A DNA stretch of 64,000 nt from Comamonadaceae bacterium 2PF (lineage in GTDB: Bacteria; Pseudomonadota; Gammaproteobacteria; Burkholderiales; Burkholderiaceae_C): assembly GCA_005502875.1 (NCBI GenBank), contig SCMV01000005.1, positions 62,001 through 126,000 of the forward strand, given 5' to 3'. A model generated the notes under the pieces. The model searched no databases and was not told where the DNA came from. It was given only the letters and a program-made list of their open reading frames with translations. Each line of letters begins with the position of its first letter. Position 1 is the first letter of the stretch. A program made the position numbers and the translations under genes. Shown here piece after piece: positions 4,401 through 46,379 of this stretch.

Positions 4401-4653
4401 ACCCCCGCACCGTCTTGGCGCCAGGCACCGACAGCATGGTCGTGGTCAGCGGGTAGGTGACCTGGTTCTCCACAATGCGCGGCGCCTGGCCTGGGTAGGT
4501 CGTGCGGATGATGACTTGCACATCAGACAGGTCGGGCAAGGCGTCCAGCGGCGTTCTCGCAACCGAATACACCCCCCATGCACTGAGCATCAAGGTGGCC
4601 AGCAGCACCAGGAAGCGGTTGGTGATGGACCAACGGATCAGGCGGGCGATCAT
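1492..4653 (-). CDS. cusA: Cu(I)/Ag(I) efflux RND transporter CusA
   Basis: Inner-membrane proton-driven pump of the heavy-metal-efflux RND family, the engine of a CusCBA tripartite exporter that ejects Cu(I)/Ag(I) across both membranes. It has 1053 residues, the normal length for the family. Landmarks are the N-terminal [10 protein letters not shown] transmembrane start, two periplasmic loops, and the HME-RND signature [21 protein letters not shown] around residues 394-414 in a transmembrane helix that carries the proton relay. The C-terminal half repeats the 6-helix bundle. The start ATG overlaps the cusB stop by 4 bp (ATGA), showing translational coupling. The methionine relay could not be checked without an alignment. 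Confidence 0.95.
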
Positions 4654-6320: not shown

Positions 6321-6333
6321 GTGAGGCTCCGTG

Positions 6334-7698
6334 TCAGTGGTCAAGAACGGGTATGGCCGCGTCGTGTTCCACCGGGATCAGGTAGTTGAGCTGCGCCCAG
6401 ATGCGAGCGGTGTCCATGTCGAGTCGCAGCCGGTCCATTTGGGTGTCCAAGGCCATGCGGCGAGCCTCCAGCACGGAGGCCAGCGTGCCGCTGCCGCCTC
6501 GGTAGGCGGTCAAGGCGGCCTGTGTTCGCTCGGCAGCCAGCGGGATCAAGGCGCTGTCGTAGCGGCGCAGGCGATCCCGGCTGCTCTGCCAGGTTTGGAG
6601 CATCACCGTGACCTGGGCAAGGTGCTCCCGTGTGGCCTCTTCGCGCTGGGCGCGCATTTGCTCCACGGTGGCCAACCTGGCAGCCAGGTCCCGGTCCTGA
6701 CGGCTCTTTTGATCCCATTGCAAGGGAACGGAGACATTGACAGAGGCCATCTTGGAATAGCCGGGCCCACGTTGACTGAGCATCAGCTCCACACCCCAGT
6801 CGGCTTGCTTGTTGGCTCGGGCCAGGTCCGCATCGGCCTGAGCCATCTCTTCCTGCCTGACCATGAAGGTGATGTCGGGGTGCGAGGTCAGCGTGCTTTC
6901 CAGATCGCTCAGGTGCAAGGGAACATGGCTGGTGTCGGGTGCATCACCCAGGGGCGTGTCGGCTGCACGACCTGTCCACCGGCGCAGCGCGGTCTGCACG
7001 GTGCTCACTTCACGCGTGGCCAGATCGATGCGGTCATCCACTTGGGCGAGTGCTGAGCGTGCGGCGAGCACATCGGTTTGCGATCCTCGGCCACCTCGGT
7101 AGGCGACCTCAGTCGCCTCAACTTGCAGGCGGATTTCATCGCGCTGTGCCTTGACCAGGGCCAGCATGCGTTCCTGGTAGTAGAGATCCAGCCAGGCGAT
7201 GGCCGTGTCTCGTTGCAGTTGAGCCAGCGCTTGTGCGCGGCTGGCTTCGCTGGCCTGGGCTTCCCGCTCAAAGCGCATGGACCGTGCAAGACGTTTGTCT
7301 TCACGGGTGAACTCCTGCATGAGACCCACTGAGCGCATGGTCATGAAATCGCGGGTGACGCTGAAGCGATCAGGCCCGTTAATGGGCAGGTTGTTGATGC
7401 CCAGTTTGAGGACGGGATCAGGTTGCTGAGCGGCCGAAACTGCCATGTCGCGGGCAGCCGCCGTGGCGTGGTTCTGGGCCACCAGTTGCTGTGAGCGTGC
7501 CTGGGACAGCCCGAGCGCATGTTCAAACGTCAGGACGTCCCCGGCATGGGCGTGGAAGGATGCGAGGCTGAGGGCCACCAGAACGACGACACCTTGGAAG
7601 CGCGTGCGAATGCGCGTGAGCATGCGCATGCAAATGGGATGGCCGAGATCGACCAGTTGCATGCCCCTGCGCGGCAGGAGCGAAGAATGGGTAAACAT
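6334..7698 (-). CDS. cusC: Outer-membrane efflux factor CusC (TolC superfamily)
   Basis: Outer-membrane channel of the CusCBA pump. ATG 7698 (MFTHSSLL) is chosen because GGAGG lies 5 bp upstream; an open extension to 7755 lacks a ribosome site. The product has 454 residues. A long N-terminal extension precedes a signal-peptide-like hydrophobic stretch ending AHA, then the TolC-type region starting LTFEHALGLSQ, with two coiled-coil repeats rich in Ala, Gln and Arg (RSQTDVLAARSALAQVDDRI in the first). No lipobox Cys is seen, unlike E. coli CusC. It is first in the cusC-cusB-cusA operon; a large hairpin lies in the 137-bp gap before it. Confidence 0.9.
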   Translation of the reverse strand: MFTHSSLLPRRGMQLVDLGHPICMRMLTRIRTRFQGVVVLVALSLASFHAHAGDVLTFEHALGLSQARSQQLVAQNHATAAARDMAVSAAQQPDPVLKLGINNLPINGPDRFSVTRDFMTMRSVGLMQEFTREDKRLARSMRFEREAQASEASRAQALAQLQRDTAIAWLDLYYQERMLALVKAQRDEIRLQVEATEVAYRGGRGSQTDVLAARSALAQVDDRIDLATREVSTVQTALRRWTGRAADTPLGDAPDTSHVPLHLSDLESTLTSHPDITFMVRQEEMAQADADLARANKQADWGVELMLSQRGPGYSKMASVNVSVPLQWDQKSRQDRDLAARLATVEQMRAQREEATREHLAQVTVMLQTWQSSRDRLRRYDSALIPLAAERTQAALTAYRGGSGTLASVLEARRMALDTQMDRLRLDMDTARIWAQLNYLIPVEHDAAIPVLDH

Positions 7699-7787
7699 GA
7701 CACCTCCGAATGAAGCCAATGGCGTGGGCGTGTGCAGGACTTGGCAGAACGCCACGCGCCTGCATTGGCCAGCAACCTGCGCGACCA

Positions 7788-12920: not shown

Positions 12921-13823
12921 CTAGATGCCGGACCAAAGACAGGTGCTGATGTTGGGTCCATTCACACCAAATCTGGCCAGAAGCGCCGCTTTGGATGGCG
13001 CCTCGCTTTCATCGCGGCAGACCACCAACCATTGGGCCGCCGCGATGGTTGGCACGGCGACAAGTGCTTCGAAGTAAGGTGCGTCCACGGCTGACAGTGA
13101 GTGCCCAAGCACACACACCGTGTCAATATCAAGCTGCTCGGTCCAGAAGGATTGATGCTCTTGGATGAGGCGTGAAGAAGGCTTGAACGTCTTGGAAAAA
13201 TAGCCATCAAGGATGTCGTGCGCTTCCGTCAACCGGACGTCCAAGTCTTCGATGTCATGGCGGTCGTTGAGCGACGGGCGCGTTGAAGGATTCCACGCGT
13301 GCCCCAAGACAAGGTCACTGTCCGGACGGTCGGCGCTGCCGTGAATGTGCAGAACATGCTCGCCAGGGACACCATACAACTGCTGCAGCGTCGGTGTGTA
13401 GTTGAAGCTCAGGAAGCGTGATGTGGGGTCCAGGGTAGACAGGCGCCGCTGTGCCGTCGCAGGGGAGGGGATCGGGAGTTGGTGCACCCATGCTGAAAAC
13501 TGCTGCCTGAGCTCCTTTGACAAGCTCTGCACCACACGATCGACTTCGTACTGAAAGTCGTGATGGCCCGCGTCGCTCCAATCATCGGCTCCGTAAGACG
13601 GCATGAACTGGCTCAAATCGTCGATGATGCTGTCGATGTCAAGATCGGCCAGCGCCGACTCAAGATCGCTCCAGTCGTCTCCTGCGGGCAAATAGTCATC
13701 AACGGTTCGAAGCAATTCCCTGTCGTGTTGGCGAACGTATGCCTTGAAGTCGGCATATTTGGATGGGATGCCATGCCAGAGATCAAACCCGTTGCCGATG
13801 ATGTAGAGCTTGCGGTTACCCAT
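12921..13823 (-). CDS. AbiH-family abortive infection protein
   Basis: A 300-residue protein that opens with LYIIGNGFDLWHGIPSKYADF, the diagnostic nucleotide-binding-like start of the AbiH family first known from lactococcal phage-resistance plasmids. A central segment (FLSFNYTPTLQQLYG, then VLHIHGSA) also matches the family (NYT and HIHG). Full family length. It is believed to kill or arrest phage-infected cells; the mechanism is unsettled. GAGG is 9 bp before the ATG. It lies 58 bp downstream of an HNH gene on the same strand, and the two form a cargo unit between Mre11- and Rad50-like genes. Confidence 0.87.
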   Translation of the reverse strand: MGNRKLYIIGNGFDLWHGIPSKYADFKAYVRQHDRELLRTVDDYLPAGDDWSDLESALADLDIDSIIDDLSQFMPSYGADDWSDAGHHDFQYEVDRVVQSLSKELRQQFSAWVHQLPIPSPATAQRRLSTLDPTSRFLSFNYTPTLQQLYGVPGEHVLHIHGSADRPDSDLVLGHAWNPSTRPSLNDRHDIEDLDVRLTEAHDILDGYFSKTFKPSSRLIQEHQSFWTEQLDIDTVCVLGHSLSAVDAPYFEALVAVPTIAAAQWLVVCRDESEAPSKAALLARFGVNGPNISTCLWSGI

Positions 13824-18039: not shown

Positions 18040-18229
18040 GGCGAACTCCTTCTTGGCGAGAGCGGGGACTCGGTTCACGCACAGTCTTGCGGGGCGGGCG
18101 TTGGAAGTCCATCCCACAATTCCGACAGCGGAACCAGCGCAAGCGGCCCAGTGAGCCCAACAAGACACCTTGTCCATCACATGCATGACAAGGTGGTGGC
18201 TGTTGGGAGGATGTGGCTGCCCTATTCAC
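18032..18229 (-). CDS. Small zinc-ribbon protein between radC and DUF5983
   Basis: A 65-residue protein starting at a GTG (18229) that overlaps the radC stop by 4 bp (GTGA). Two CxxC knuckles, CHAC at about residues 14-17 and CRNC near 35-38, form a rubredoxin-like zinc ribbon, followed by a basic tail (RPPRKTVREPSPRSRQE) suited to nucleic-acid binding. The overlaps with radC and the TTG-started DUF5983 gene support that it is real. Confidence 0.7.
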   Translation of the reverse strand: MNRAATSSQQPPPCHACDGQGVLLGSLGRLRWFRCRNCGMDFQRPPRKTVREPSPRSRQEGVRLG

Positions 18230-18807
18230 AGCAAGCCCTGTTCCGCAAAAGACAGGACGCGGTCGCCTCCTACGACGAAATGGTCGAGCACGCGCACGTC
18301 CACCATCATCAAAGAGGATTTCAGCGTCTGGGTCAAGAGTTCGTCTGCACTGCTTGGCGACAATTGACCGCTCGGGTGGTTATGGGCCAACAAAACGGAT
18401 GCCGCGTTGTGGGCCAGCGCGCTTTTGACGACCTCACGAGGGTAAACAGACGTTTGGGTCAATGTGCCCCGGAACATCTCTTCGGCCTCGATCAGAACAT
18501 GCTGGGCGTCAAGGTACAGCACCAGGAACACCTCGTGCTCCAAACCGGCGCAGTACATGCACAACCAGTCCTTGACAACCTTGGGTGACGCCATGACCGG
18601 TCCATCCAGCATTTTGGCGCGCATGTCTCGCAGCAGCAGCTCACGTGCGATGCTGAGTTTGTGGGCCAGCTCAGGGGGAGCGTGCTCAACGGCCTGGTAT
18701 GTGGCTGCTGCATCGCAGGCGCGGGGCAAAGGGAGGGGAGCTTGGCGAACAGGTGCGGCGAGTAACTCGCTGACCAGTTCGGCACTGGACAAGTGGGTGA
18801 CATTCAC
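18226..18807 (-). CDS. radC: RadC/JAB-domain protein
   Basis: A 193-residue protein of the RadC (MPN/JAB-like) family, common on ICEs, plasmids and anti-restriction loci; its biochemical role is unsettled. Metal-site residues HNHPSG, with later SxxD, are clear (AHNHPSGQLSPSSAD, near residues 140-154), as is EVFLVLYLDAQ. The helix-hairpin-helix part of chromosomal RadC is absent and replaced by a short helical N-terminus. GTG 18807 is chosen for the AAGGAGA 5 bp upstream; the frame is open much further (to 19188) but that part is leader RNA. It is first gene of the radC-ZnR-DUF5983 operon. Confidence 0.85.
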   Translation of the reverse strand: MNVTHLSSAELVSELLAAPVRQAPLPLPRACDAAATYQAVEHAPPELAHKLSIARELLLRDMRAKMLDGPVMASPKVVKDWLCMYCAGLEHEVFLVLYLDAQHVLIEAEEMFRGTLTQTSVYPREVVKSALAHNAASVLLAHNHPSGQLSPSSADELLTQTLKSSLMMVDVRVLDHFVVGGDRVLSFAEQGLL

Positions 18808-18967
18808 GGATTTCTCCTTCACAAAAAAGGAAAAGCGGGAACGTCCTGTCCCGAGGGGATGGAGGTTCCCGCTCGGGATGTGCTGACGCGAGGCCAGCAC
18901 GGTCAATGAGGCAGGTGACGACTGCGACGCCGACGCAAGGTCGGGAGCGCATTCCGCGATGGAATGC
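18808..18967 (-). ncRNA. Structured leader of radC, resembling the radC RNA motif, with attenuator-like hairpin
   Basis: Read on the minus strand: hairpin GCATTCC/GGAATGC (18967-18949); the conserved 22-nt element (18931-18910); hairpin GTGCTG/CAGCAC (18900-18880); and a 9-bp stem AGCGGGAAC/GTTCCCGCT (18873-18865 with 18842-18834). The last stem is followed by TTTTCC and TTTTTT just before the radC ribosome site, as in an intrinsic terminator. TCCCGAG just 5' of that stem can also pair with CTCGGGA inside its loop, an interlocked a-b-a'-b' (pseudoknot or switch) order. The 22-nt element recurs in two other leaders of the island. The radC RNA motif is known from 5' regions of radC, integrase and anti-restriction genes; identity with it needs a covariance search. 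Confidence 0.7.
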
Positions 18968-19166
18968 AGGTAGCAGTGGGCAGTGTGTCGTGATGGTCGG
19001 AAGCGCTCAAGCCTTGACCTCTGCATGCCATGGACAAGGGCCCACAGAACCGGGGAGTTGTGGAATGCACGCCCGGGTGACAGCTGAATATCACTTGAAG
19101 TTAAGTACAGAAATCTTGTTTCAGTGGGTAGCCAAAGCCGTGACACGGGCCTGAAATTTCGCCAAG

Positions 19167-21411: not shown

Positions 21412-21588
21412 TCAGGCGGCAGCACGGTAAGCCATGACCTGTTCGACCTGTCGCGAGACAGGCAGCGCAGGCTTCAGCAATGCGGGTAGCACTGCAGGAC
21501 GGATCACAGGCTCGCGGGCAAGCCCGGAGCCACCCAACAGCACGCAGATGGCGCGCGTTTCCCTTATCGCATGAGGGCATGCGTTCAT
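21412..21588 (-). CDS. Small 58-aa protein behind a structured leader
   Basis: Starts ATG AAC GCA TGC with AAGGAG 6 bp upstream and reads 58 residues (MNACPHAIRETRAICVLLGG ... VEQVMAYRAAA). No family recognised; the middle is hydrophobic (VIRPAVLPALLKPALP). The perfect ribosome site and the elaborate leader (21589-21819) that contains the 22-nt element argue that it is expressed. Confidence 0.5.
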   Translation of the reverse strand: MNACPHAIRETRAICVLLGGSGLAREPVIRPAVLPALLKPALPVSRQVEQVMAYRAAA

Positions 21589-21819
21589 GACGTTCTCCTT
21601 CAGGGTGTGAAGGGGAACGCCTCGTCCCGATGGGGAACATGGTGGTTCCCCAACTTGGAATGCTTCAGCCTTGGCGGTTGAAGCGGCTCGGCGGCGGCAC
21701 GGTGAGGTGCGCCGATGACACGGTGTTCAGCATGAGGGCTGAACGAGGCACAAGGCCATTGACATGGCCTAGCTGAACCGAGGTTCAGCTTCTACAAGGC
21801 AGGTCACGACTGCGACGCC
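21589..21819 (-). ncRNA. Highly structured leader of the 58-aa gene with the shared 22-nt element
   Basis: No other gene is credible between 21589 and 22078. Read on the minus strand: the 22-nt element (21819-21798); then perfect hairpins AGCTGAAC/GTTCAGCT (21790-21771), AGGCCAT/ATGGCCT (21770-21753) and GTTCAGC/GCTGAAC (21744-21725); then GCTTCA/TGAAGC (21684-21662). Last comes a region where TGGGGAAC can pair with GTTCCCCA at close range (21652-21631) or with a second GTTCCCC (21651-21645 with 21618-21612), which are mutually exclusive. This looks like a regulatory RNA related to the radC leader. From 21820 to 22078 I see nothing convincing. Confidence 0.65.
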
Positions 21820-22078
21820 AGCATGGCTGGACTTCAGGGAGACCGAAATCTCCATTGAAGGCTTCGTGAACGCGATGTCCACAGTTAGCCGTTGCAGTAT
21901 CGATTCCCTCTGCATTTTTCTCAATCCATGAAGCCAAGGTGACAGGAAGCACCATCAACAAGGCTTGGCAAATGGCATCGCTTTTCCGTGGCCGATTGGC
22001 GCTCAAATTGGTCTGAGCAAGCAACAGCGCCCTAGGTGGCGATGACGCATGGGCGACAGATTTTTGCCGAAGCGAAGC

Positions 22079-23176: not shown

Positions 23177-23363
23177 GGACGCGTATTTTCACTGATCAAG
23201 CTCTGCGTTGTTCGCTCTGGGCTTAAGGGTTGCTTTTGCGGGAGACGCTACCCGTAGTGCTTGAGAACGTTCTGATAACTAGATATAGTGTTTCGGGATC
23301 ATTCTGGTGCCAATGTGGGAGCCAGCCCCTGATTTCCCAACTTCAACGAATTCACAGACACGC

Positions 23364-24329
23364 ATGGCCAAGGTTTTCTTTTCCTACTCGCACGACGATG
23401 AGGCATACCGGGACCAACTGGAGAAGCACCTGGCTTTGCTCCGGCATGAAGGGCTGATTGAATCCTGGCATGACCGTCGCATCCTGGCGGGCGCCGATCT
23501 CAACCAGGTCATTGACGACCAGTTGAACCAGGCGGATGTGATCTTGCTGTTGGTGAGCGCGAGTTTCCTGTCATCACGCTACTGCTACTCCATTGAAATG
23601 GCGCGGGCGCTGGAGCGCCAGAGCAGGGGGGGAGCGCAGGTCGTTCCCGTGATCGTTCGGCCTTGCGATTGGCAGCAACCGCCGCTCAATGGCCTGATGG
23701 CTGTCCCAAGAGACGGCAAGGCCATCACCATGTGGGCCAACCACGATGAGGCCTACACCGACGTGGCGCGCAGCATCCGGTCGTTGGTGACGCAACTGGG
23801 CGGGCGTACGCACGTCGCGGGTGCGCCCAGCAGGGCTCAGCCGCTTGCAGCGGCCAGCGCTCTGCCATCAGAACAGGTGTCTTTGCCTCGATCCAGCAAC
23901 CTGCGCCTGCGCAAGGAGTTCACCGAGCGTGACCAGGATGCATTCCAACATGCCGCCTTCGACTACCTGGCCAGGTTCTTTGAGGGCTCCCTGGCCGAGC
24001 TGCAAGCCAGAACGCCTGGTGTGGAGGGCGTGTTCCGGCGCATTGATGGCAACGCCTTCAGCGGCGTCGTTTACAAGGACGGCAAGAAACTCAGCCAGTG
24101 CGGGATACGGCTTGGCGGAGGGGGATTCAGGCAGGGTGGCATCACCTATTCTTCTGATCCATCGGCACCCAGCGGCAGCTACAACGAGATGGTGATGGTT
24201 GAAAAAGACGACCAGGCCATGTACTTCAAACCCCTGGGGATGGCGATGCACCGAGGGCGCTCCGACAAGTTGACTCAAGAGGGGCTGGCTGAGTTTTTCT
24301 GGGAACTGTTGATCAAACAACTCCAGTGA
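23364..24329 (+). CDS. TIR-domain protein
   Basis: A 321-residue protein. ATG 23364 (MAKVFFSYSHDDEAY) starts exactly at the first TIR strand; an upstream GTG at 23307 adds unlikely sequence. The TIR domain covers about residues 1-135 with the strands FFSYSHDD, ADVILLLVSASF and QVVPVIVRPCDW, and the catalytic-type Glu in SSRYCYSIEMARAL. Bacterial TIR domains often cleave NAD+ or make cyclic ADP-ribose variants upon phage sensing. The C-terminal 150 residues form a separate unrecognised domain (FDYLARFFEGSLAELQ, GIRLGGGGFRQGGITYSS). It sits just before a type I restriction operon and divergent from a membrane SH3 protein. Confidence 0.83.
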   Translation: MAKVFFSYSHDDEAYRDQLEKHLALLRHEGLIESWHDRRILAGADLNQVIDDQLNQADVILLLVSASFLSSRYCYSIEMARALERQSRGGAQVVPVIVRPCDWQQPPLNGLMAVPRDGKAITMWANHDEAYTDVARSIRSLVTQLGGRTHVAGAPSRAQPLAAASALPSEQVSLPRSSNLRLRKEFTERDQDAFQHAAFDYLARFFEGSLAELQARTPGVEGVFRRIDGNAFSGVVYKDGKKLSQCGIRLGGGGFRQGGITYSSDPSAPSGSYNEMVMVEKDDQAMYFKPLGMAMHRGRSDKLTQEGLAEFFWELLIKQLQ

Positions 24330-24440: not shown

Positions 24441-26846
24441 ATGGATCACGCAGCACATAACAAGATCGTCTCGTTCATCTGGTCCATTGCAGATGACTGC
24501 TTGCGCGACGTTTTTGTACGGGGCAAATACCGTGACGTGATCCTGCCCATGTTCGTTCTGCGCCGCCTGGACTGCTTGCTTGAGTCGAGCAAGGCTGGTG
24601 TGCTCGAAGAAGTGCGGTTCCAGCAAGAAGACGCGGCGATGGCTGATCTGGACCCGCATGGCCTGCGCGATGCGTCTGGCTACGTCTTCTACAACACGTC
24701 CAAGTTCACGCTCAAGAGCCTGCTGGGCAACCCCACACAACTGGAAGCCAACCTCAAGAACTATCTCGACGGGTTTTCGGACAACGTGAAGGAAATCGTC
24801 GACAAGTTCGACCTGCGCAACCAGATCCGCAAGATGGCGCAGTCTGACGTGCTCCACGACGTCATCGAAAAATTCGTCTCCGAAGAAATCAACCTCAGCC
24901 CGGATGATCGCAAGGGCCCGGATGGCCGCACACAGCCTGGCTTGTCCAACCTGGGCATGGGCTACGTGTTCGAGGAGTTGATCCGCAAGTTCAACGAAGA
25001 GAACAACGAAGAGGCCGGTGAACACTTCACGCCGCGTGAGGTCATCAAGCTGATGACGAACCTGGTGTTCATCCCCGTCAAGGATCAGCTTCCCAACCCG
25101 CTGACCATTTACGACCCCGCTTGCGGTAGCGGTGGCATGTTGACCGAGTCCCAGGACTTTGTGACCGACCCTGAAGGCGAGATCAAGGCCAAGGTGGGCG
25201 TCTTCTTGTACGGCAAGGAGGTCAACCCCGAGACCTATGCCATCTGCAAGTCCGACATGATGATCAAGGGCAACGACCCCGAGAACATCCGCTTTGGCTC
25301 CACGCTGGCCACCAACGATTTCTCTGGCAAGCGCTTCGACTTCATGTTGACGAACCCGCCCTACGGCAAGTCATGGAAGAGCGACCAGAAGAGCATTGTT
25401 GAAGGCAAGGAAGTCATTGATCACCGCTTCCAGGTCAACCTGTCCGACTACACGGGCGAGCGCTTTGATTTTTACCCGGCCATCCCTCGCTCCTCAGATG
25501 GCCAGTTGCTGTTTCTGATGGAGATGGTGGACAAGATGAAGCGCCGTGCCGACAGCCCTGTGCGGTTTGCCGGCTCGCGCATTGCATCGGTCCACAACGG
25601 TTCGGCCCTGTTCACCGGTGATGCAGGCAGCGGCGAGAGCAACATCCGCCGCCACCTGATCGAGCACGATTACCTCGAAGCCATCATCCAGCTGCCCAAC
25701 AACCTGTTCTACAACACCGGCATCACCACCTACGTGTGGCTGCTCACGAACAACAAGCCTGCCAAGCGCCAGGGCAAGGTGCAGTTGATCGACGCCTCCA
25801 ACCTGTTCCAGAAACTGCGCAAGAACCTGGGAGAGAAGAACTGCGAGTTCACCGACGAGCACATTGAGCAGATCACCCAGCTGTACTTGACCATGCCGGC
25901 GGATGGCATCTCGAAGGTCTTCCACAACCGCGACTTCGGCTATTACAAAGTCACGGTGGAGCGCCCATTGCGATTGGCCGCCCAGTTCACACCCGAGCGC
26001 ATGGCCACCTTGCGCTACACGCCTGGCATGCAGGAGATCATGGAATGGGTGCACGGCAAGTATGGCGAAGAGGTCTATACCGGCCTGAAGGCCCATGCCG
26101 AGGCCATTGAGAACCACCTTGAGCGCGAAGAAATCACCCTTTCGCCCAAGAGCCGCAAAGAGCTGTTGTCTGAGCCCACCTGGCTGGCGCAGCGATCCAT
26201 CATGCAGGCCGCTCAGCAATTGGCTGGGGTGATCGGCAGTGCGGAGCACCTCGATTTCAATGTGTTCGAAGCCCTGGTGGACGATGGCATCAAAGCTTTG
26301 GGCCTCAAGCTTGCCGCGAATGAGCGCAAGCAGATCCTGAACGCCGTGAGCTGGCGAGACCCGTGCGCAGCCAAGGTGATCAAGAAGCGACACCAGCTCA
26401 CCGCAGCCAAGCTCAAGGAATTGTTGGCCGAACTCAAGACAACGGCCGACAAGCTGGCCGACCATGGCTATTGGCCTGCAGAGGTGCCAGCCGCCGCTGA
26501 AGCCAAGGGCGGCAAGAAAGCGGCCAAGGTGGGCGAGTACATCGAGTACGAACCTGACAGCGAATTGCGCGACACCGAAAACGTGCCGCTCTCACTGGAC
26601 GCCAGCCTGCCCGCCTCTGGCGTCATCCACGATTACTTCATCAAGGAAGTGCGCCCCCATGTGGACGAGGCCTGGATCGCGCTGGACAAAACGGTCATCG
26701 GCTATGAAATCAGCTTCAACAAATACTTCTATCAGCACAAGCCATTGCGCAGCCTGGAAGAGGTGACCCAGGAAATCCTGGCCCTGGAGGCCGAGACGGA
26801 TGGCCTGCTCAAGGCCTTGGTGGCTTTTGTGGGGGCAGGGGCATGA
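24441..26846 (+). CDS. hsdM: Type I restriction-modification N6-adenine methyltransferase HsdM
   Basis: Modification subunit that methylates adenine in the site chosen by HsdS and, with HsdR, makes the full restriction complex. It has 801 residues, longer than a typical HsdM (about 500-550) owing to a C-terminal extension. The N-terminal helical domain is followed by SAM motif I (DPACGSGGM, near residues 225-233) and catalytic motif IV NPPYG (near 304-308). It begins MDHAAHNKIVSFIWSIADDC. The stop overlaps the DUF1016 gene start by 4 bp (ATGA), first in the order hsdM-DUF1016-hsdS-hsdR. Confidence 0.95.
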   Translation: MDHAAHNKIVSFIWSIADDCLRDVFVRGKYRDVILPMFVLRRLDCLLESSKAGVLEEVRFQQEDAAMADLDPHGLRDASGYVFYNTSKFTLKSLLGNPTQLEANLKNYLDGFSDNVKEIVDKFDLRNQIRKMAQSDVLHDVIEKFVSEEINLSPDDRKGPDGRTQPGLSNLGMGYVFEELIRKFNEENNEEAGEHFTPREVIKLMTNLVFIPVKDQLPNPLTIYDPACGSGGMLTESQDFVTDPEGEIKAKVGVFLYGKEVNPETYAICKSDMMIKGNDPENIRFGSTLATNDFSGKRFDFMLTNPPYGKSWKSDQKSIVEGKEVIDHRFQVNLSDYTGERFDFYPAIPRSSDGQLLFLMEMVDKMKRRADSPVRFAGSRIASVHNGSALFTGDAGSGESNIRRHLIEHDYLEAIIQLPNNLFYNTGITTYVWLLTNNKPAKRQGKVQLIDASNLFQKLRKNLGEKNCEFTDEHIEQITQLYLTMPADGISKVFHNRDFGYYKVTVERPLRLAAQFTPERMATLRYTPGMQEIMEWVHGKYGEEVYTGLKAHAEAIENHLEREEITLSPKSRKELLSEPTWLAQRSIMQAAQQLAGVIGSAEHLDFNVFEALVDDGIKALGLKLAANERKQILNAVSWRDPCAAKVIKKRHQLTAAKLKELLAELKTTADKLADHGYWPAEVPAAAEAKGGKKAAKVGEYIEYEPDSELRDTENVPLSLDASLPASGVIHDYFIKEVRPHVDEAWIALDKTVIGYEISFNKYFYQHKPLRSLEEVTQEILALEAETDGLLKALVAFVGAGA

Positions 26847-27964
26847 GCCCGCGCAAGGTTGTGGCGCCCCAGGCAACGGCCTTGCCAGACGAATTGCTGG
26901 GCCGTGTCGTCACCATCCTGGAAGATGCGCGCCAGCGCGTCGCGCGCACGGTCAACAGCGAGATGGTGCTGGCCTACTGGCTCATCGGGCGCGAGATTGT
27001 GCAGGCGCTGCAGGGCGGGCAAGATCGGGCGGGTTATGGCCAGAGCCTGCTGGACGGACTGGCCTCTGAGTTGACTAACCGCTTTGGGCGCGGCTTCTCG
27101 GCCACCAACCTCAAGAACTGCCGTTTGTTCTACCAGGCCTACGCGGAGCGCCAGCCCGAAATTCGTCAGACGGCGTCTGACGAATCGAACCCCTCGGGGT
27201 TTCTGGCTGAACTGTCGTGGTCGCACTATGTGTTCCTGACGGGTTTGCGCAATGCCGACGAGCGCCGCTTCTATGAGATCGAGGCGGCCCGTGGCACCTG
27301 GTCGCTGGCGCAGATGCGCCGCCAGTTCGACAGCGGCTTGTTTGAACGCCTGGCACTGAGCCGCGATCCGCAGACCATCGGGCAACTGGCCGCAGAAGGC
27401 GATCTCATCCAGGCGCCCAAGGACCTCATCAAGACCCCCTATGTGCTGGAGTTCCTGGGCCTGGAAGAGCGCAGCAGCTATTCAGAATCCGACCTGGAAG
27501 CGGCCATCATCAACAAGATCGAGCACTTCTTGCTGGAACTGGGCAAAGGCTTCTTGTTCGAGGCCCGGCAAAAGCGCTTCACCTTTGAAGAAGAACACTT
27601 CTTCGTGGACCTGGTGTTCTACAACCGCCTGCTGCGTTGCTATGTGCTGATCGACCTCAAGCTCGGCAAGCTGACCCACCAGAACCTGGGGCAGATGCAG
27701 ATGTATGTGAACTACTTTGACCGCTTCGTGAAGCGCGACGACGAGCACAAGACCGTCGGCATCATCCTGTGCAAGAAGAAGAACGACGCGCTGGTGGAGA
27801 TCACGCTGCCCCAGGACGCCAATGTGCACGCCTCGGAATACCAGTTGTACCTGCCCAGCAAAGACGAGCTGCAGCAGCGCTTGCAGGAGTGGGCGGCCGA
27901 GAGCGCCGTGGCGGGTGGTCAAGATGGCAGCCAGCCTGCGGCCAGCAAGAAGGCGGGCAAGTGA
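26843..27964 (+). CDS. DUF1016 (YhcG-like) PD-(D/E)XK nuclease
   Basis: A 373-residue protein of the YhcG/DUF1016 family. The N-terminal region (VLAYWLIGREIVQALQGG, FGRGFSATNLKNCRLFYQAY) is the family's helical DNA-binding-like domain. The C-terminal part has the PD-(D/E)XK nuclease core: FFVDLVFYNR (Asp), VLIDLKLGKL (DxK) and the following QMQMYVNYFD helix. It overlaps hsdM upstream (ATGA) and hsdS downstream (TGATG), so it is built into the restriction operon, where such genes are fairly often seen. Whether it is part of the complex or an independent nuclease is unknown. Confidence 0.9.
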   Translation: MSPRKVVAPQATALPDELLGRVVTILEDARQRVARTVNSEMVLAYWLIGREIVQALQGGQDRAGYGQSLLDGLASELTNRFGRGFSATNLKNCRLFYQAYAERQPEIRQTASDESNPSGFLAELSWSHYVFLTGLRNADERRFYEIEAARGTWSLAQMRRQFDSGLFERLALSRDPQTIGQLAAEGDLIQAPKDLIKTPYVLEFLGLEERSSYSESDLEAAIINKIEHFLLELGKGFLFEARQKRFTFEEEHFFVDLVFYNRLLRCYVLIDLKLGKLTHQNLGQMQMYVNYFDRFVKRDDEHKTVGIILCKKKNDALVEITLPQDANVHASEYQLYLPSKDELQQRLQEWAAESAVAGGQDGSQPAASKKAGK

Positions 27965-29268
27965 TGCGGCGGTACGAACAGTACAAGCCAAGCGGCCTGG
28001 ATTGGTTGGCGGATGTGCCATCTCACTGGCAGGTCGTGGCCAATCGTGCCCTGTTCAGGGCGCGCCAAGAAGCTGGCGAGGATGGCCTGCCGGTGCTGTC
28101 GGTTTCCTTGCACACGGGTGTTTCAGACGACGAGCAGAACGAAGAAGAGAACGCCCGCACCAGAACGCGCATGGCCGATCGCACCAGCTACAAACGCGTT
28201 CGCCCTGGTGACGTGGCGTACAACATGATGCGGGCCTGGCAAGGTGCCATTGGTGCGGTTCGCACGGATGGCTTGGTCAGCCCGGCCTATGTGGTTGCGG
28301 CGCCGACTGCTGCGTTGAACCCTGCCTATTTTGAGTACCTGTACCGGACTGGATGGCTCATCGGCGAAATGAATCGGGCCTCCAAAGGCATCACGGACTT
28401 TCGCAAACGTTTGTACTGGCAAGAGTTCAAGCAGTTGTCGACGGTGGTGCCACCACGCGAGGACCAGGACCGCATCGTTGCCTTTCTCGATCAGAAGATC
28501 TCTGAAATTGATGCTGCTATTGCCAAGAAGGAGCGGTTGACTGAGTTGCTGTTTGAGCAGCAGTTCAACACGATAAATCATGTCGTAACCCAAGGGTTGG
28601 ATATTAACGCTCCCCGGCAACCAAGCAAAGAGCAGTGGCTCGATTCCTACCCAGCTCACTGGCAGCTGATGCGCATCAAACACGTCCTCTCGGCCATCGT
28701 TGATACCGAACACAAGACCCCCCCAATGTACGAAGAGGGCCCAGTCCTTGTCGTTCGGACGAGTAACGTCAAGGGTGGTGAGTTGACCTATGCGAACGCG
28801 AAATTCACTGATGAGAAAACCTTCTCAAGGTGGACGCGTCGAGCAACACCTGAAGCCGGCGACATTCTCTTTACGCGGGAGGCTCCCGCTGGCGAGGCTT
28901 GTGTATTGCCTGCGGGCGTCAAGGCGATCATCGGTCAACGCATGGTTCTCTTCAAGGTCAATGCTGAGCGGCTGGATCCTCATTTCGCAGTTCATTCGAT
29001 TTATTCTGGTGCGGCAAAAGTCTTCGTGGAGTTGTTAAGCGTCGGCTCAACGGTTGCGCACTTCAATATGTCTGACATTGGCAACATTCCTTTGCTGCTC
29101 CCCCCGCTCGAAGAGCAACGTGCCATCAGTCAGAAAATTCGAGAAATACAAAATCAGTTCAAGCCAGTGATTGCCTCAACAACGTCAAGCCTTGAGCAGC
29201 TCCGGGAACTCAAGCATGTGTTGATTGAATCCGTTGTGAGTGGTCAAGTGGCGGTCCCCAGGGAGTAA
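27964..29268 (+). CDS. hsdS: Type I restriction specificity subunit HsdS
   Basis: DNA-recognition subunit with two target-recognition domains that set the split recognition site of the restriction-modification complex. Its 434 residues begin MRRYEQYKPSGLDWLADVPS (27964, TGATG overlap with the nuclease gene). The end of the first half has VVPPREDQDRIVAFLDQKI, and the second half ends PLLLPPLEEQRAISQKI, the repeated helix pair that spaces the two domains. It reads as intact, so the recognition site could be predicted only by database comparison. Confidence 0.93.
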   Translation: MRRYEQYKPSGLDWLADVPSHWQVVANRALFRARQEAGEDGLPVLSVSLHTGVSDDEQNEEENARTRTRMADRTSYKRVRPGDVAYNMMRAWQGAIGAVRTDGLVSPAYVVAAPTAALNPAYFEYLYRTGWLIGEMNRASKGITDFRKRLYWQEFKQLSTVVPPREDQDRIVAFLDQKISEIDAAIAKKERLTELLFEQQFNTINHVVTQGLDINAPRQPSKEQWLDSYPAHWQLMRIKHVLSAIVDTEHKTPPMYEEGPVLVVRTSNVKGGELTYANAKFTDEKTFSRWTRRATPEAGDILFTREAPAGEACVLPAGVKAIIGQRMVLFKVNAERLDPHFAVHSIYSGAAKVFVELLSVGSTVAHFNMSDIGNIPLLLPPLEEQRAISQKIREIQNQFKPVIASTTSSLEQLRELKHVLIESVVSGQVAVPRE

Positions 29269-29270
29269 AA

Positions 29271-32228
29271 ATGGTCAGTCAAACCAACGAAGCCGCGCTT
29301 GAAACGCACATCGAAACAGCCTTGGTCAAGGACGGCTATCGCGTTGGCAACCCGGCTGATTTTGACCGGACCTTTGCGGTCGATCGCCAGCTGTTCTGGG
29401 AGTTTCTGGAATCCACCCAACCCCAGGAGGTGGCCAAGCTCAAGGATCGCCCCAACTGGCAGCGCCTGGTGCTGGAGCGGCTCAGCAAGAAGATCAAAAA
29501 AGACAGCGTGCTGGCCGTGCTCAAGAAGGGGCTCGATGTGGACGACGCCCACTTCGATCTGCTCTACCGCCAGCCCTACAACCAGCTCAACCCCGAGGTG
29601 CTGGCCCGCTACGAGGCCAATGTGTTCAGCGTCACCCGGCAGGTGCACTACAGCGAGACCGACAGCCTCAAGTCCATCGACATGGTGCTGTTCGTCAATG
29701 GCCTGGCCATCGCCACCATTGAGCTCAAGAACCATTGGACCGGGCAAACGGTCTGGAACGCCATCTACAAGCAGTACAACCTGCGCGATCCCAATGAGCC
29801 GATTTTCGAGTTCGGCCGCTGCCTGGTGCACTTGGCCGCAGACCCGGACGAGGTCTACTTGTGCACCCGCCTGGCTGGCAAGGACAGCAACTTCCTGCCA
29901 TTCAACAAGGGCGTAGACCACGGCAAGGGCAACCCGGTCAACCCGAACGGCTATAAAACAGCCTACCTGTGGGAAGAGATCCTGGCGCGCCGCAGCCTGA
30001 GCAACATCATCGAGCAGTTCGCCAAGTTCACGGTTGAGAAGGACAAGAAGACCGGCAAGGAGCGCAAGGCGCTGTACTTCCCCCGTTACCAGCAGCTGGA
30101 CGTGGTGCGCCGCATCTTGGCCGACGCCCAGCAGAACGGCGTGGGCCTGAGCTACCTGATCCAGCATTCGGCGGGCTCGGGCAAGTCCAACTCCATCACC
30201 TGGCTGGCGTACCAGTTGGTGGAGCTGTACAACCAGGCAGGCACGGCCAATGTGTTTGATTCTGTGGTCGTGGTGACAGACCGGCGCGTGCTCGACACCC
30301 AGCTCAAGGACAACATCAAACTGTTCTCCGAGACCAAGAACATCGTGGCCCACTGCGAGAGCGGGCAGGAGCTGAAGTACAACCTGGAGGCGGGCAAGAA
30401 GGTCATCATCACCACGGTGCAGAAGTTCCCGCGCATCGTTGAAGGCATGGACGCCCTGACGGACCGACGCTTTGCGGTGATCATTGACGAGGCCCACTCA
30501 TCTCAATCGGGCACCAGCGCCGACAGTCTGAACGAGGCCATTGGCGGCGAAGACGCCGAAGCGCCCGAGGACATCCAGGACAAGATCCTGGCTGCCATGG
30601 CGGGCCGCAAGATGAGCAAGAACGCCAGTTACTTCGCGTTCACGGCCACGCCCAAGCCTGCCACGCTGGAAAAATTTGGCCGCCAAGGCGCCGATGGCAA
30701 GTTCTACCCCTTCCACCTTTATTCGATGAAGCAGGCCATCGAGGAGAAGTTCATCCTCGATGTGCTGGAGAAGTACACCACGTACAAGAGCTACTACGAG
30801 GTGCAGAAGTCAGTCGAAGGCAACCCGCTGTTCGACACCGCCAAGGCCCACAAGAAACTCAAGGCTTTTGTGGAGGCCAGCCCCAAGACCATCGAAGTGA
30901 AGGCCCGCATCATGGTCGATCACTTCATGAGCAGTGTGTGGCAAGCCAAGAAGCTCAAGGGCAAGGCCAAAGCCATGGTGGTCACCCGCAACATCGAGTG
31001 CGCCATCCGCTATTTCTTCGCCATCCGCACCGCCTTGCAGGAAGCCAACGCGCCGTTCAAGGCGCTGGTGGCGTTCTCTGGCGAGAAGACGGTGGACGGC
31101 ATCAAGTACACCGAAGACAGCATCAACGGCATCGCTGTGCGTGACCTGCCGGACGAGTTCGAAAAGGATGACTTCAAGATCCTGGTGGTGGCCAACAAGT
31201 ACCTGACCGGCTTTGACGAGCCCATGCTGCACACCATGTACGTGGACAAGAAGCTGCAGGGCGTGCTGGCGGTGCAGGCGCTGTCTCGCCTTAACCGCTG
31301 CAACTGGAGGCTCGACAAGCGCGACACCTTTGTGCTGGACTTCTATAACTCGGTGGACGACATCAAGGCCGCCTTCGATCCGTTCTACACCGCCACGTCG
31401 CTGAGCGAGCCCACCGACGTGAACGTGCTGCATGACCTGAAGGATGCGCTCGACGCTTTTGGCATCTACGACTGGAGCGAGGTGACGAGCTTCAACGAGA
31501 AGTTCTTTGCCAGCGCCCAGGCGGAGGAGCTGGCGCCGATCATCGACGCAGTGGTGGCACGGTTTGATGCCGATCTTGACGATGAAAAGCGCATCGACTT
31601 CAAGATCAAGGCCAAGCAGTTCGTGAAGATCTACGCACAGGTGGCGGCCATCTTGCCGTTCAACAACGTGAACTGGGAGATGCTGCACTGGTTCTTGAAG
31701 TTCCTCATCCCCAAGCTGAAGGTCAAAGACCCAGATCAGGACAAGTTGGACGAGCTGCTCAACAGCGTGGACCTGTCGACCTACGGCCTGGAGCGCTCGC
31801 GTCTGGAGGTCAAGATCGGCCTGGATGAATCCGAGGCTGAACAAGAGCCAGCCAACCCCAATCTGCGCGGTGCGCACATGGGGGAGGGCGATAAGGATCC
31901 GTTGGAAGACATTGTGCGCACCTTCAACGAGCGCCACTTTGCAGGCTGGGAAGCAACGCCTGAAGAGCAGCGGGTGAAGTTCATCAACATCGCCAAGCAT
32001 GTGGTGGCGCACGTTGATTACCGTGCCCAGGTTGAAGACAACCCCGATGCACAGAACAGGCAGTTGGCCCTGGAGAAGATCATCCAGCAGGCCATCAGCA
32101 TGGAGCGCAGGCGGGAACTGGACTTGTACAAACAGTACGCCTCTGACCCGGATTTCAAGCGCGCATTTGACGCCAGCATCTCCCGGCTGATTTCCAGTGG
32201 AGGCTGGATGGACCGGCCTTCTGTCTAA
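29271..32228 (+). CDS. hsdR: Type I restriction endonuclease/translocase HsdR
   Basis: Motor and nuclease subunit. It has 985 residues. N-terminal nuclease motifs are near residues 136-152 (DMVLFVNG, then IELKNH). Superfamily 2 helicase motifs follow: AGSGKS (Walker A, near 300-305), DEAH (near 405-408), FTATP (near 458). A C-terminal helical domain binds HsdM. It starts 2 bp after the hsdS stop, completing hsdM-DUF1016-hsdS-hsdR in order. No disruption is seen, so the system looks functional. Confidence 0.95.
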   Translation: MVSQTNEAALETHIETALVKDGYRVGNPADFDRTFAVDRQLFWEFLESTQPQEVAKLKDRPNWQRLVLERLSKKIKKDSVLAVLKKGLDVDDAHFDLLYRQPYNQLNPEVLARYEANVFSVTRQVHYSETDSLKSIDMVLFVNGLAIATIELKNHWTGQTVWNAIYKQYNLRDPNEPIFEFGRCLVHLAADPDEVYLCTRLAGKDSNFLPFNKGVDHGKGNPVNPNGYKTAYLWEEILARRSLSNIIEQFAKFTVEKDKKTGKERKALYFPRYQQLDVVRRILADAQQNGVGLSYLIQHSAGSGKSNSITWLAYQLVELYNQAGTANVFDSVVVVTDRRVLDTQLKDNIKLFSETKNIVAHCESGQELKYNLEAGKKVIITTVQKFPRIVEGMDALTDRRFAVIIDEAHSSQSGTSADSLNEAIGGEDAEAPEDIQDKILAAMAGRKMSKNASYFAFTATPKPATLEKFGRQGADGKFYPFHLYSMKQAIEEKFILDVLEKYTTYKSYYEVQKSVEGNPLFDTAKAHKKLKAFVEASPKTIEVKARIMVDHFMSSVWQAKKLKGKAKAMVVTRNIECAIRYFFAIRTALQEANAPFKALVAFSGEKTVDGIKYTEDSINGIAVRDLPDEFEKDDFKILVVANKYLTGFDEPMLHTMYVDKKLQGVLAVQALSRLNRCNWRLDKRDTFVLDFYNSVDDIKAAFDPFYTATSLSEPTDVNVLHDLKDALDAFGIYDWSEVTSFNEKFFASAQAEELAPIIDAVVARFDADLDDEKRIDFKIKAKQFVKIYAQVAAILPFNNVNWEMLHWFLKFLIPKLKVKDPDQDKLDELLNSVDLSTYGLERSRLEVKIGLDESEAEQEPANPNLRGAHMGEGDKDPLEDIVRTFNERHFAGWEATPEEQRVKFINIAKHVVAHVDYRAQVEDNPDAQNRQLALEKIIQQAISMERRRELDLYKQYASDPDFKRAFDASISRLISSGGWMDRPSV

Positions 32229-43957: not shown

Positions 43958-45154
43958 TCACGACGCCCGCTCTGGCGGTGCGTCGCCCATGCCATCCACA
44001 TCACGTGATCTTGTACGGCGCTGCACACGTACCGCGCCAAGGTAGGCCCCTGACGCCCGTATGCGCGCATGCCCGGCCAACCTTGACACGGATTGCCTGG
44101 CCTGACGGTCCAACTCCGGTGGCACCATCTGCCCTCCACGCACCGGGGGTGGGGTTCCTACAAGGGCCTCATAGTGACCGATCAACACCTCATGGCGCAG
44201 GCCATGGGCGGTCACCCCCCGTTCGCGCACGGTGATGCCGAACTTGGTCAACACGTAGTCAAAGTGCCTGAGGTTCTGGCGCAGGTCATGGGCAGGGTTG
44301 CCCATGTGCGCATCCTGGCTGCTGACCACGCCCTGCGCGAATGCCACGGCGGCAAGGCGCTCCGGGCTGTCCAGAGGGATGTGGCGCACCCGGCCTCCCT
44401 TGCCCTTGATCCTCGCGTACCGATCTGCCGACTTGTCCTCGGGCGGCAGGCCCGTGGACTCGAAGGGCACGATGCTCTCAAATGGCCGAAACAGCACCGA
44501 TTCCTTGCGCCGCAGGCCCATGGTGCGGATCAGCCGCAACGAGGCCCCCACAAAGCGGTCGTGTTCACAGACCTGGGCAATCACGGTGTCGATGTCCACC
44601 CCATGTGCCGACCAACCTTTGTCCCGGCTGGCGTACTCATGGCGCTGGTATTCGTCAACGCTCAAGCCGTAATGGTCTGGTGATCGCACGAAGCCATGTT
44701 TGCCCATCCACATGGCCAGCCCGCGCAGAAAGCTCAGGTAGGTCTGGATCGTCGCCGGGGCCAGGTGCTCCTGCTGCCAGACCTGCACCATGGCCCGGAT
44801 GTGCTTTTGCCCCAGGTTGCGCGGGTCAGGCACCGTCTTGAACCCGGCCTTCGCCTTCAAGTCCCGAAAGAAGCGACGCAGGAACTGGGCGCGCTCCTGC
44901 CTTGTCTTGTGTGAGACGGTTTTGGCCATCGAGGTGTGCAGGGTGTTGAACAGTTCGATCAACACCTCCAGCACCTTGAGCGGTGGCGTCTGGCCCGTGG
45001 GGTAGTGGGCCAGGATGTCCTGGGGCGACTTGCCCGCCCAGCTTTGACGGCGTGCGGGTTGGTGCTGGCTTGAGCGCCCAGGGCTGGATGCTTCCTGAAC
45101 CCGGCGCCGTGATGATCTGGGCGTTGTGGATCGAGGGGTGGATGAGTCAGACAT
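43958..45154 (-). CDS. Tyrosine recombinase (island integrase-like, second in the window)
   Basis: A 398-residue site-specific recombinase. A basic Ser/Arg-rich N-terminus (residues 1-40), a core-binding domain near 60-160 (ERAQFLRRFFRDLKAKAGF), then the catalytic domain: Arg in MGLRRKES (near 214), HGLRHE (near 320), GHARIRASGAYLG with H/R and a possible Tyr nucleophile near 370. The expected terminal arrangement is normal but should be checked. No ribosome site at 45154. It has a very long upstream leader with the 22-nt element. It is distinct from the P4-type integrase at 50656 and may serve dimer resolution or DNA mobility of the island. Confidence 0.82.
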   Translation of the reverse strand: MSDSSTPRSTTPRSSRRRVQEASSPGRSSQHQPARRQSWAGKSPQDILAHYPTGQTPPLKVLEVLIELFNTLHTSMAKTVSHKTRQERAQFLRRFFRDLKAKAGFKTVPDPRNLGQKHIRAMVQVWQQEHLAPATIQTYLSFLRGLAMWMGKHGFVRSPDHYGLSVDEYQRHEYASRDKGWSAHGVDIDTVIAQVCEHDRFVGASLRLIRTMGLRRKESVLFRPFESIVPFESTGLPPEDKSADRYARIKGKGGRVRHIPLDSPERLAAVAFAQGVVSSQDAHMGNPAHDLRQNLRHFDYVLTKFGITVRERGVTAHGLRHEVLIGHYEALVGTPPPVRGGQMVPPELDRQARQSVSRLAGHARIRASGAYLGAVRVQRRTRSRDVDGMGDAPPERAS

Positions 45155-45865
45155 GATGTGTGCCCATGGTCAAGGGCCCGCCGCCCGAACAGCGGGTTGA
45201 TGTTGTGTGAAGTGGTGAGTGAAGGTGGAATCCCATGGAGATCGCCGATGGCGCGGATTCCGTCGCCCCATCGACTCGTGGTCAAGCATCCTGCGCCGCA
45301 CGCGACCACGACAGGTGCGGCGCCTACCCAAAGGTTTGTCGGTCGGTGTGCCTGCGTTGATGCATCGACACCGGCCAACTCGGTCTTTCTTAAAAACGAA
45401 ACGGGTGATCCGTCCCAGTCGTGCATTTCTGCAGCCGTGGGGTTGGTGATGCCGGTTTGCCTCTGGGCATGGGCGGCATCGGCGCGGAGGTCTGGCCTCA
45501 CGCGTCTGTGGTGGATCAGTTCTGGATTCGGAGCGCCATCCACTCGCATGGGTCCACCCCTGACCGAAAGTCCAGGGCGGTGCCGAGTTCATGAGCGTGG
45601 TCGCACGGGGAGCCTAAAGAGGCAAACACAGCCGTGCGGTGCGCCGAGGCGCGTGCTCAAGGGATGGCGGGAACAGCGGTTCGGCATCGGGTGCCGACTG
45701 CGTGCTCGAAGACCGTGGCGCGTTTCAGGAACGCCCAACTCAGGGAGTTGGCAGGGCCATCGGTGCATGCACTGCGAAGAAAACCTCAGGACCATCACCT
45801 CTGGGGCGATGGCGAATTCCGGTTCAAGGACCGGAGCTTGGAGGGCAGGTAACGACTGCGACGCC
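45155..45865 (-). ncRNA. Long leader of the tyrosine recombinase with the 22-nt radC-type element
   Basis: No credible gene lies in these 711 nt. On the minus strand the 22-nt element (45865-45844) is followed by hairpin TCCGGT/ACCGGA (45835-45818), as in the other two leaders, and close to the recombinase start by CCCGC/GCGGG (about 45192-45175). Long open frames exist on both strands but none has a ribosome site or plausible composition. Confidence 0.55.
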
Positions 45866-46379
45866 TTTTGCTCCATCAGGAGCAGAGCCAGGACGGCTCT
45901 CGGGAATCTGTAGTGGACTCGCCGGGGGCCCTTAGGTCAAGGACCACAGCCGCAATGGCCCACATAGCCGGGCGTTTGAGCGTGGCGAACTAGGGGCGCG
46001 CAACATGCCCTTGAGTCGTGCTTATTTACTGATAGGGCTCAAGCGCCAGGCAGCCCGTGGGCTTGACATCAAAAAATCCTGCCTCTGGTTCCCAACAAAG
46101 GTTCTCGATGGGCTGAGATGGACCTCGATGGCGCCTGCCTCGGGCGTGGCGAAAGGGGTTGACGAGTGTCATTCGAATGAGAACGTGGTGACACACGCGA
46201 CCCCAGAACCCAGAGCGCGAAGGTTTGGCAATAGGCCAATGTCATTGCGACGCATGCAGGCTGACAGTGAATCTGCACCGATGCCGAAATCATGTGTTCT
46301 GAGTCGGGGTTTGCCGTGGCGGGATCGTGTCAGCTTGCTGATGCTGATCGCTCATGAACCCACGCCTTGGAGGCTCATC
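45866..46379. other. Intergenic region upstream of parM with a 12-bp palindrome
   Basis: Between the recombinase leader and parM. It holds a perfect palindrome TCATTCGAATGA (46169-46180) just after a -35-like TTGACG (46159-46164), within a longer GTGTCA (46166-46171) ... TGACAC (46189-46194) inverted pair. No direct-repeat array of a type II centromere is visible by eye. The GGAGG before parM ends this region. Nothing else is recognised. Confidence 0.5.

Follow-up and report, generated by a model that had tools for sequence, protein, structure and literature searches.

What is the 22-nt element that recurs in three leader regions of a 64,000-nucleotide stretch of DNA from Comamonadaceae bacterium 2PF (the window, part of contig C55 of 142,675 bases), and what might it do there? 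We propose, with a probability of about one half, that it belongs to a structured module which stands at the 5′ ends of several transcripts of an SXT-type conjugative element and would act on RNA polymerase as a put/nut-type antitermination signal; the structure is read from covariation and hairpin counts, and we infer the antitermination step from the position of the module and from the leaders that follow it.

The core and its copies

On the plus strand the core reads GGCAGGT-N-ACGACTGCGACGCC; on the minus strand, the same strand as the downstream genes, it reads GGCGTCGCAGTCGTNACCTGCC. A pattern search of the window finds three exact copies:

18910..18931, minus strand: core copy 1, in the radC leader; exact match, N = G; covariance model match of 91.7 bits at 18872-18982, this copy being a member of the model's own training set
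21798..21819, minus strand: core copy 2; exact match, N = C; model match at 21770-21830
45844..45865, minus strand: core copy 3; exact match, N = A; model match at 45811-45916

Three copies with one variable base had been predicted at just these positions, and that prediction was exact; allowing up to 3 mismatches adds no further copy in the window, and 100 shuffled windows gave a mean of 0.02 and a maximum of 1. A fourth copy lies outside the window on the same contig, 53 kb away on the plus strand and about 210 nt 5′ of alpA (AlpA PF05930, E = 6e-11); it has two mismatches relative to the degenerate consensus, differs in the first two bases, and is without a clean upstream hairpin P2 (see below). 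Searching the genome itself with 3 mismatches added two places, the alpA copy and one on another contig which, lying within coding-like sequence, is probably a chance match. Mismatches to the degenerate consensus at the four sites on the contig are 0, 0, 0, and 2, and the next best places have 5; a covariance model run over 141,175 bases of the contig likewise found the four sites and no other at E≤0.001. The alpA copy, a hairpin 5′ of each copy, and promoter-like sequence 5′ of each window copy all go beyond the original prediction.

Distribution of the core

The degenerate pattern occurs in at least 118 stretches of species genome contigs. Among the 80 matches listed, about 66 are betaproteobacterial by title, 10 are given only as Proteobacteria or Pseudomonadota, and 4 are others (Mycobacterium, and Planctomycetales, Phaeospirillum, and Gammaproteobacteria MAGs); no Pseudomonas title appears among these 80, whereas environmental Aquabacterium and Thauera strains do. 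One contig of the viral collection carries the pattern. A 3-mismatch search of 399 genomes of the order gave a match in 82, mostly as single 3-mismatch places, and since a reversed-pattern control matched in many genomes too, only G327, G078, and G387 were taken further; two-mismatch places in G314, G277, and G030 were left out of the site set. Pooling the non-redundant pattern matches with the own, G327, G078, and G387 sites gives at least 125 distinct sites, a count that (like that of the 20 58-aa-type leaders below) omits the duplicate L043+3401. Sites with too little flank were dropped, so that 121 were kept for hairpin counts, 112 for the promoter scan, and 116 in one other analysis. In a phylum sample of 299 genomes the module was found only in the own genome, where the strict filters reported one of the four copies. 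The plasmid collection yielded no convincing leader copy, its 7 matches being weak (E 1-4). Seven plasmids carry RadC homologues of 50-60% identity, and for none of the 7 does a core at up to 4 mismatches lie within 1.5 kb on either side, which argues that the core travels with the element rather than with radC itself.

A structured module around the core

The core is flanked by short hairpins, which we call P1 and P2 (upstream) and P4 (downstream), and can itself form a helix, P3:

18949..18967, minus strand: P1 upstream hairpin, copy 1; found by hairpin search; 55.5% of cells paired (helix 1, 22-sequence alignment)
18930..18944, minus strand: P2 upstream hairpin, copy 1, its 3′ strand ending in the core's first two G; 80.2% of cells paired (helix 2, 22-sequence alignment); also in the class test and the minimum-energy fold
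18911..18925, minus strand: P3 core helix, copy 1, GCAG-7 nt-CTGC; A-U/G-C covariation in relatives; absent from this copy's minimum-energy fold
18880..18900, minus strand: P4 downstream hairpin, copy 1, starting 9 nt after the core; one G-T pair; 59.5% of cells paired (helix 4)
21866..21882, minus strand: promoter-proximal hairpin, copy 2; helix 1, 100% of cells paired, both-side changes in 4/6 pairs (20-sequence alignment)
21818..21830, minus strand: P2, copy 2; 99% of cells paired (helix 3, 20-sequence alignment)
21771..21790, minus strand: P4, copy 2, starting 7 nt after the core; all Watson-Crick; helix 5, 71.1% of cells paired, both-side changes in 8/9 pairs
45884..45900, minus strand: P1, copy 3; helix 1, 36-sequence alignment; fold
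45870..45883, minus strand: P2, copy 3, 4 nt 5′ of the core; helix 2, 36-sequence alignment; fold
45818..45835, minus strand: P4, copy 3, starting 8 nt after the core; all Watson-Crick; helix 4, both-side changes in 7/7 pairs

A perfect hairpin within about 10 nt of each copy on the minus strand had been anticipated; the distances hold at 9, 7, and 8 nt, and perfection fails for the radC copy with its single G-T pair. The further claim that structure is kept while sequence varies is upheld by strong covariation in three alignments: scores are.297 versus.144 (36 sequences),.325 versus.193 (20 sequences), and.275 versus.150 (22 sequences), each exceeding all 500 shuffles, and slid-structure controls (≤.151) fall below the real scores in all three. 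The count of further pair types is weaker, being reached in 28/500 shuffles of the 20-sequence and 111/500 of the 22-sequence alignment.

Within the core, where the search pattern permits all four combinations at positions 8 and 18, the 125 distinct sites have A-T in 86, G-C in 38, and G-T in 1, and both A-T and G-C occur within single genomes. Hairpins scoring ≥16 are found directly 3′ of the core at 55% of sites (12% in shuffles), in the following 50 nt at 38% (9%), directly 5′ at 46% (8%), and farther 5′ at 13% (12%), these percentages being based on 121 entries including the one duplicate. In five gene families, 57/64 entries (a duplicate among them) have a hairpin with a 3′ strand finishing at the first bases of the core, compared with 20-30% in shuffles, and so do 15/23 sites without an assigned downstream gene; in the recombinase family that hairpin sits 4 nt 5′ of the core instead, and only 4/37 pass the core-abutting test. 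Unconstrained folding recovers P1, P2, P3, and P4 together in the recombinase leader and in one large-gene leader; the minimum-energy folds of copies 1 and 2 place the core in a different pairing from the module model.

The covariance model was trained on 22 leaders of the radC and large-gene families; at E≤0.01 it gave 95 matches from 81 sources, training sequences included. It did not match three loci judged to be chance (L097, L152, L158), did match L170, and missed two loci with assigned sites (L072, L162). Of ten matches inspected as possibly new, eight are new because they differ by 1-2 letters from the search pattern; the remaining two were already covered, one being an existing site and the other repeating the surroundings of a site. 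On visual inspection, three of the eight stand before radC-like ORFs, two before large-gene-like ORFs, and one before an ORF resembling the one at the G387 site; the last two are unclear cases. In the model-made alignment of all 95, which leans towards the model, pair 8/18 is A-U in 62, G-C in 33, and mispaired in none. As judged from these comparisons, a structured leader module with the 22-nt core as its fixed part is well supported.

Position relative to promoters

We scanned 700 nt around each of the 112 sites with sufficient flank, and the best sigma70-like pair had its -10 at -95 to -45 of the core in 68/112, against 8.2 expected from length alone. In the window these predicted promoters are:

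18982..19010, minus strand: copy 1, TTGAGC-N17-CACACT
21896..21924, minus strand: copy 2, TTGAGA-N17-GATACT
45912..45940, minus strand: copy 3, TTGACC-N17-TCCACT

Stricter scans of two window leaders (copies 1 and 3) reported no promoter. By family, a promoter lies in range for recombinase in 32/35, 58-aa type 15/20, alpA 8/17, radC 6/11, large gene 3/11, one further family 0/3, and unassigned sites 4/15; the match is weak or displaced at many alpA and large-gene sites, and the best match for the own alpA copy is at -29. Hexamers are alike within a family, with TTGANN-N16/17-NATACT in most 58-aa-type leaders and TTGACC-like-N17-TCMACT in most recombinase-type leaders. No conserved -10 was found 3′ of the core. 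Given promoter-like sequence 45-95 nt upstream, the element is probably transcribed, and its assignment to leader regions was borne out.

Estimated start codons, by comparison, lie 95-850 nt 3′ of the core (radC 95-199 nt, recombinase 581-850 nt). A narrow distance to the promoter together with a wide distance to the start codon suggests that the position of the module is set by the promoter rather than by the ribosome-binding site, and this in turn argues that the module acts either on RNA polymerase or on the transcript's 5′ end.

A search for an upstream activator box returned enriched k-mers mostly from single gene families. About 100-112 nt 5′ of the core, a number of recombinase leaders carry a ACCCGCAA/GCCACCCG segment 5′ of the -35, a possible activator box.

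Downstream genes and their leaders

18226..18807, minus strand: radC, RadC-like JAB domain protein (PF04002, E = 8.6e-42)
21412..21588, minus strand: 58-aa ORF (VLLGGSG family), starting at +231 from the core, with homologues in relatives
43958..45154, minus strand: tyrosine recombinase 3′ of copy 3 (Integrase_1 PF12835, PF12834)
18823..18872, minus strand: terminator-like hairpin (GCGGGAAC...GTTCCCGC) and T-rich tract just 5′ of the radC ribosome-binding site, seen in 11/11 radC leaders
45397..45417, minus strand: terminator-like hairpin with T tract within the long recombinase leader, with similar sequence in 9/39 recombinase leaders

All three genes are those named in the original prediction, though the recombinase starts as far as some 700 nt downstream. 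Across the 125 sites the genes that follow in the same orientation are recombinase (39), 58-aa type (20), alpA (18), radC (11), a large gene of ~1,700 aa with the working label helicase/methylase (11), and one further family (3), leaving 23 unassigned, 11 of them with less than 800 nt of sequence left. One of these six families therefore follows at 102/125 distinct sites, the families having first been chosen from these same downstream regions. Repeated tagging of the same gene families in related elements fits the proposed co-regulation.

Between module and start codon, terminator-like hairpins are present in 11/11 radC leaders (shuffles 4%) and 9/20 58-aa-type leaders (shuffles 8%), and in 0/18 alpA, 1/11 large-gene, and 8/39 recombinase leaders (shuffles 13% for the last), shuffle rates across the families being 4-13%. 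Skew of C over G is slightly higher in leaders than in genes in five of five families (0.05-0.18 versus 0.00-0.12), and the best 78-nt stretches show no consistent excess of leaders over genes; any Rho-type signal suggested by these figures is weak.

The radC and 58-aa-type leaders have in common the repeats GGGAAC ... GTTCCC ... GTTCCC near the ribosome-binding site (window 18835-18872 and 21613-21651), found by a strict pattern in 17/20 58-aa-type and 4/11 radC leaders; these segments could form mutually exclusive, attenuator-like hairpins. Separately, about 600 nt between module and recombinase (window 45155-45843) are similar in various genomes, one cluster comprising 20 sites, and mostly lack a convincing ORF; a longer RNA, structured or noncoding, may be encoded there.

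The conjugative element and its activator

The coupling protein encoded on the contig belongs to the SXT TraD subfamily (3.2e-202, above cut-off) and adjoins a DUF4400 protein, and an integrase gene lies at window 50656-51915. The contig also carries an FlhC-like gene (PF05280, E = 1.2e-8, above cut-off), adjoined by an FlhD-like ORF (E = 0.047, below cut-off); for a profile of 17 such ORFs the three best solved-structure matches are FlhD chains (E 0.0025-0.025). This gene content is consistent with a conjugative element of the SXT/R391 type that has a SetCD-like activator.

An FlhC-like gene is present at E≤1e-5 in 33/39 motif-bearing genomes (32 below 1e-30), these 39 having been reached through 40 loci hand-picked from 119, with two of the six misses at loci judged to be chance. 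It is present in 3/399 genomes of the order (own, G327, and one weak 26% match) and, at E≤1e-15, in 1/369 genomes of the class (own only); FlhC-like matches in the plasmid collection are weak only (4 records). An FlhD-like ORF accompanies it in 31/31 loci, one place being counted twice. The core and the FlhDC-like pair are thus shown, at the level of genome comparison, to be associated through membership in the same element. Reading frames of ~380-456 aa with tandem double matches to the FlhC-like protein were seen in G764:C6, G773:C19, and G801:C199.

Relation to known RNA families and known systems

The Rfam radC motif had been suggested as a match, and this was not supported. RF01754 matched nothing in the own genome, a result weak alone since the control matched nowhere either; Rfam 15 at gathering score gave 0 matches in the window and 10 related loci; and scans of the window and of 18700-19100 at E≤10 had no radC motif among the matches listed. 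At gathering score, the window and those loci give no support for the radC motif or another Rfam 15 family as the identity of the module. Literature listings showed no description of such an RNA, and the letters of the core appeared only in papers that, by titles and abstract starts, are on other subjects.

Short conserved leader elements upstream of several operons are known in lambda nut, which lies a few nt from a hairpin, and in ops/JUMPstart; the core resembles both in placement and differs from them in sequence. RfaH-like factors are NusG paralogues, and the only NusG-family match in this genome is on another contig, so that an RfaH-like factor encoded with the element was not seen.

RNA antiterminators are described for phage HK022 and for Tn916 (excerpts of PMC9378689 and PMC11658703). 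The HK022 putL and putR RNAs are stem-loops 3′ of a promoter that act on terminators ≥10 kb away (PMC9378689, in part); the module would resemble them if transcribed, with predicted stem-loops 3′ of a predicted promoter, but put comprises two long adjacent stem-loops of ~70 nt, whereas here short hairpins (P1, P2, P3, and P4, four at most), joined by linkers no longer than ~12 nt, are grouped around a 22-nt core and do not form two long neighbouring stem-loops. Antiterminators of the put type bind the zinc-binding domain of RNA polymerase β′ and suppress termination. Antitermination near a promoter of a conjugative element is represented by canT of Tn916 and conAn of pLS20 (PMC11658703, PMC8955417, both in excerpt); these are Gram-positive, with one site before a long operon, whereas the module is found on four or more separate transcription units. 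For Gram-negative conjugative elements, the part of PMC8955417 available to us mentions only an ops/RfaH site.

In ICEclc, an element with a BisDC activator, a 27-bp motif is common to 8/9 bimodal promoters including that of alpA (PMC9286271, in excerpt). This transfer-competence motif is like the core in standing before several genes, alpA among them, in an element with an activator of the FlhDC class; if the two were the same, the novelty of the module would be lower.

Antitermination and its alternatives

The mechanism we favor would run as follows. Several transcripts of the SXT-type element carry, near their 5′ ends, a structured RNA module whose invariant core is the 22-nt element, the order being promoter, module (~40-75 nt past the predicted start), variable-length leader, and gene; the module itself comprises one or two hairpins (P1/P2), the core with P3 (GCRG-UCGWNAC-CYGC), ~8 nt, and P4. 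Once transcribed, it would modify the elongating RNA polymerase, either alone (put-like) or with host factors (nut-like), and the modified polymerase would pass terminators in the long leaders. RNAs started at promoters of the element itself would in this way be marked for full expression on induction of transfer, the element-encoded FlhDC-like activator being a candidate driver of those promoters. Antitermination is our best guess in view of the promoter-tied position and the terminator-like hairpins of the radC and 58-aa-type leaders; against a general role, such structures are missing in all 18 alpA leaders and in most large-gene and recombinase leaders.

The same position would suit a 5′ stabiliser or a protein-binding site, and a second reading is that a trans-acting protein or small RNA binds the module as a leader RNA and alters stability or translation, not elongation. 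The host does have a ProQ-family protein. However, the estimated start codon can be ~850 nt away, a search of the contig with one version of the core gave no antisense match of ≥11 nt, and neither ProQ on the contig nor CsrA anywhere in the genome was found. We regard a trans-acting binder as possible but doubtful.

We initially favored a DNA operator for an FlhDC-like activator of the SetCD/AcaCD/BisDC type, with the hairpins incidental. The activator genes accompany the motif (33/39 picked genomes versus 3/399; FlhD-like ORF at the same locus in 31/31), and the core contains an inverted repeat whose arm centres are separated by 11 bp, the AcaCD core being likewise an inverted repeat in the available text of PMC5058578; the family resemblance extends to the SXT-type TraD and FlhDC-like pair on this contig. 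Co-occurrence would nevertheless be expected for any genes of one element. What set the operator back is promoter position and pairwise covariation: SetCD and AcaCD boxes, as described in part for AcaCD (PMC5058578), are DNA sites just 5′ of or at the -35, whereas the core lies 3′ of the predicted promoter in those 68/112 sites and is followed by no conserved -10; positions 8 and 18 vary as complementary pairs in all but 1/125, both types occurring within a single genome, and covariation extends to the flanking hairpins. We now consider an operator unlikely.

Variable hairpins beside a conserved core in a conjugative element also recall Frpo-like single-strand promoters or ssDNA origins, active during transfer, and radC-type genes are often expressed early after transfer. 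This is very unlikely here: the sites occur on both strands (the own alpA copy on plus, three on minus, and several relatives similarly), yet only one strand is transferred, and double-stranded promoter sequences are predicted 5′ of the core. Least probable of all is a dispersed repeat or coding motif without regulatory role, since, although ~22-nt repeats can spread by copying, the core alone is common to the gene families, the hairpins vary in sequence and keep their pairing, and one of six gene families follows in the same orientation at 102/125 sites, allowing for the choice of families from the same regions.

Antitermination thus remains our preferred reading. A bolder version, which we offer tentatively, is a regulon-wide RNA tag, in which one module after each of several separate promoters would let only polymerases started there read through the terminators ahead of genes for recombination, repair, and DNA processing, perhaps without any element protein. 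Whichever way it acts, a structured leader RNA without an Rfam match now has a clear boundary, a covariance model, and a gene set, and many betaproteobacterial genomes contain members of the family of conjugative elements that carries it. As far as the excerpted sources go, antitermination by RNA has been described for conjugative elements of Gram-positive bacteria (conAn, canT), and the module raises the question of whether elements of the SXT type regulate their excision and DNA-processing genes at a step after initiation, through RNA acting on RNA polymerase.

Other features of the element

A divergent actin-like (ALP/ParM) gene on the plus strand (window 46005-47423) adjoins the recombinase leader. 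The window also carries defence-like cargo (12921-13823, 23307-24329, and 24441-32228: AbiH, a TIR-domain protein, and a type I restriction system), and efflux cargo is found both at window 1492-7755 and in loci L006-L008 (heavy-metal/multidrug CusA/CzcA-type and other RND pumps, and P-type ATPases).
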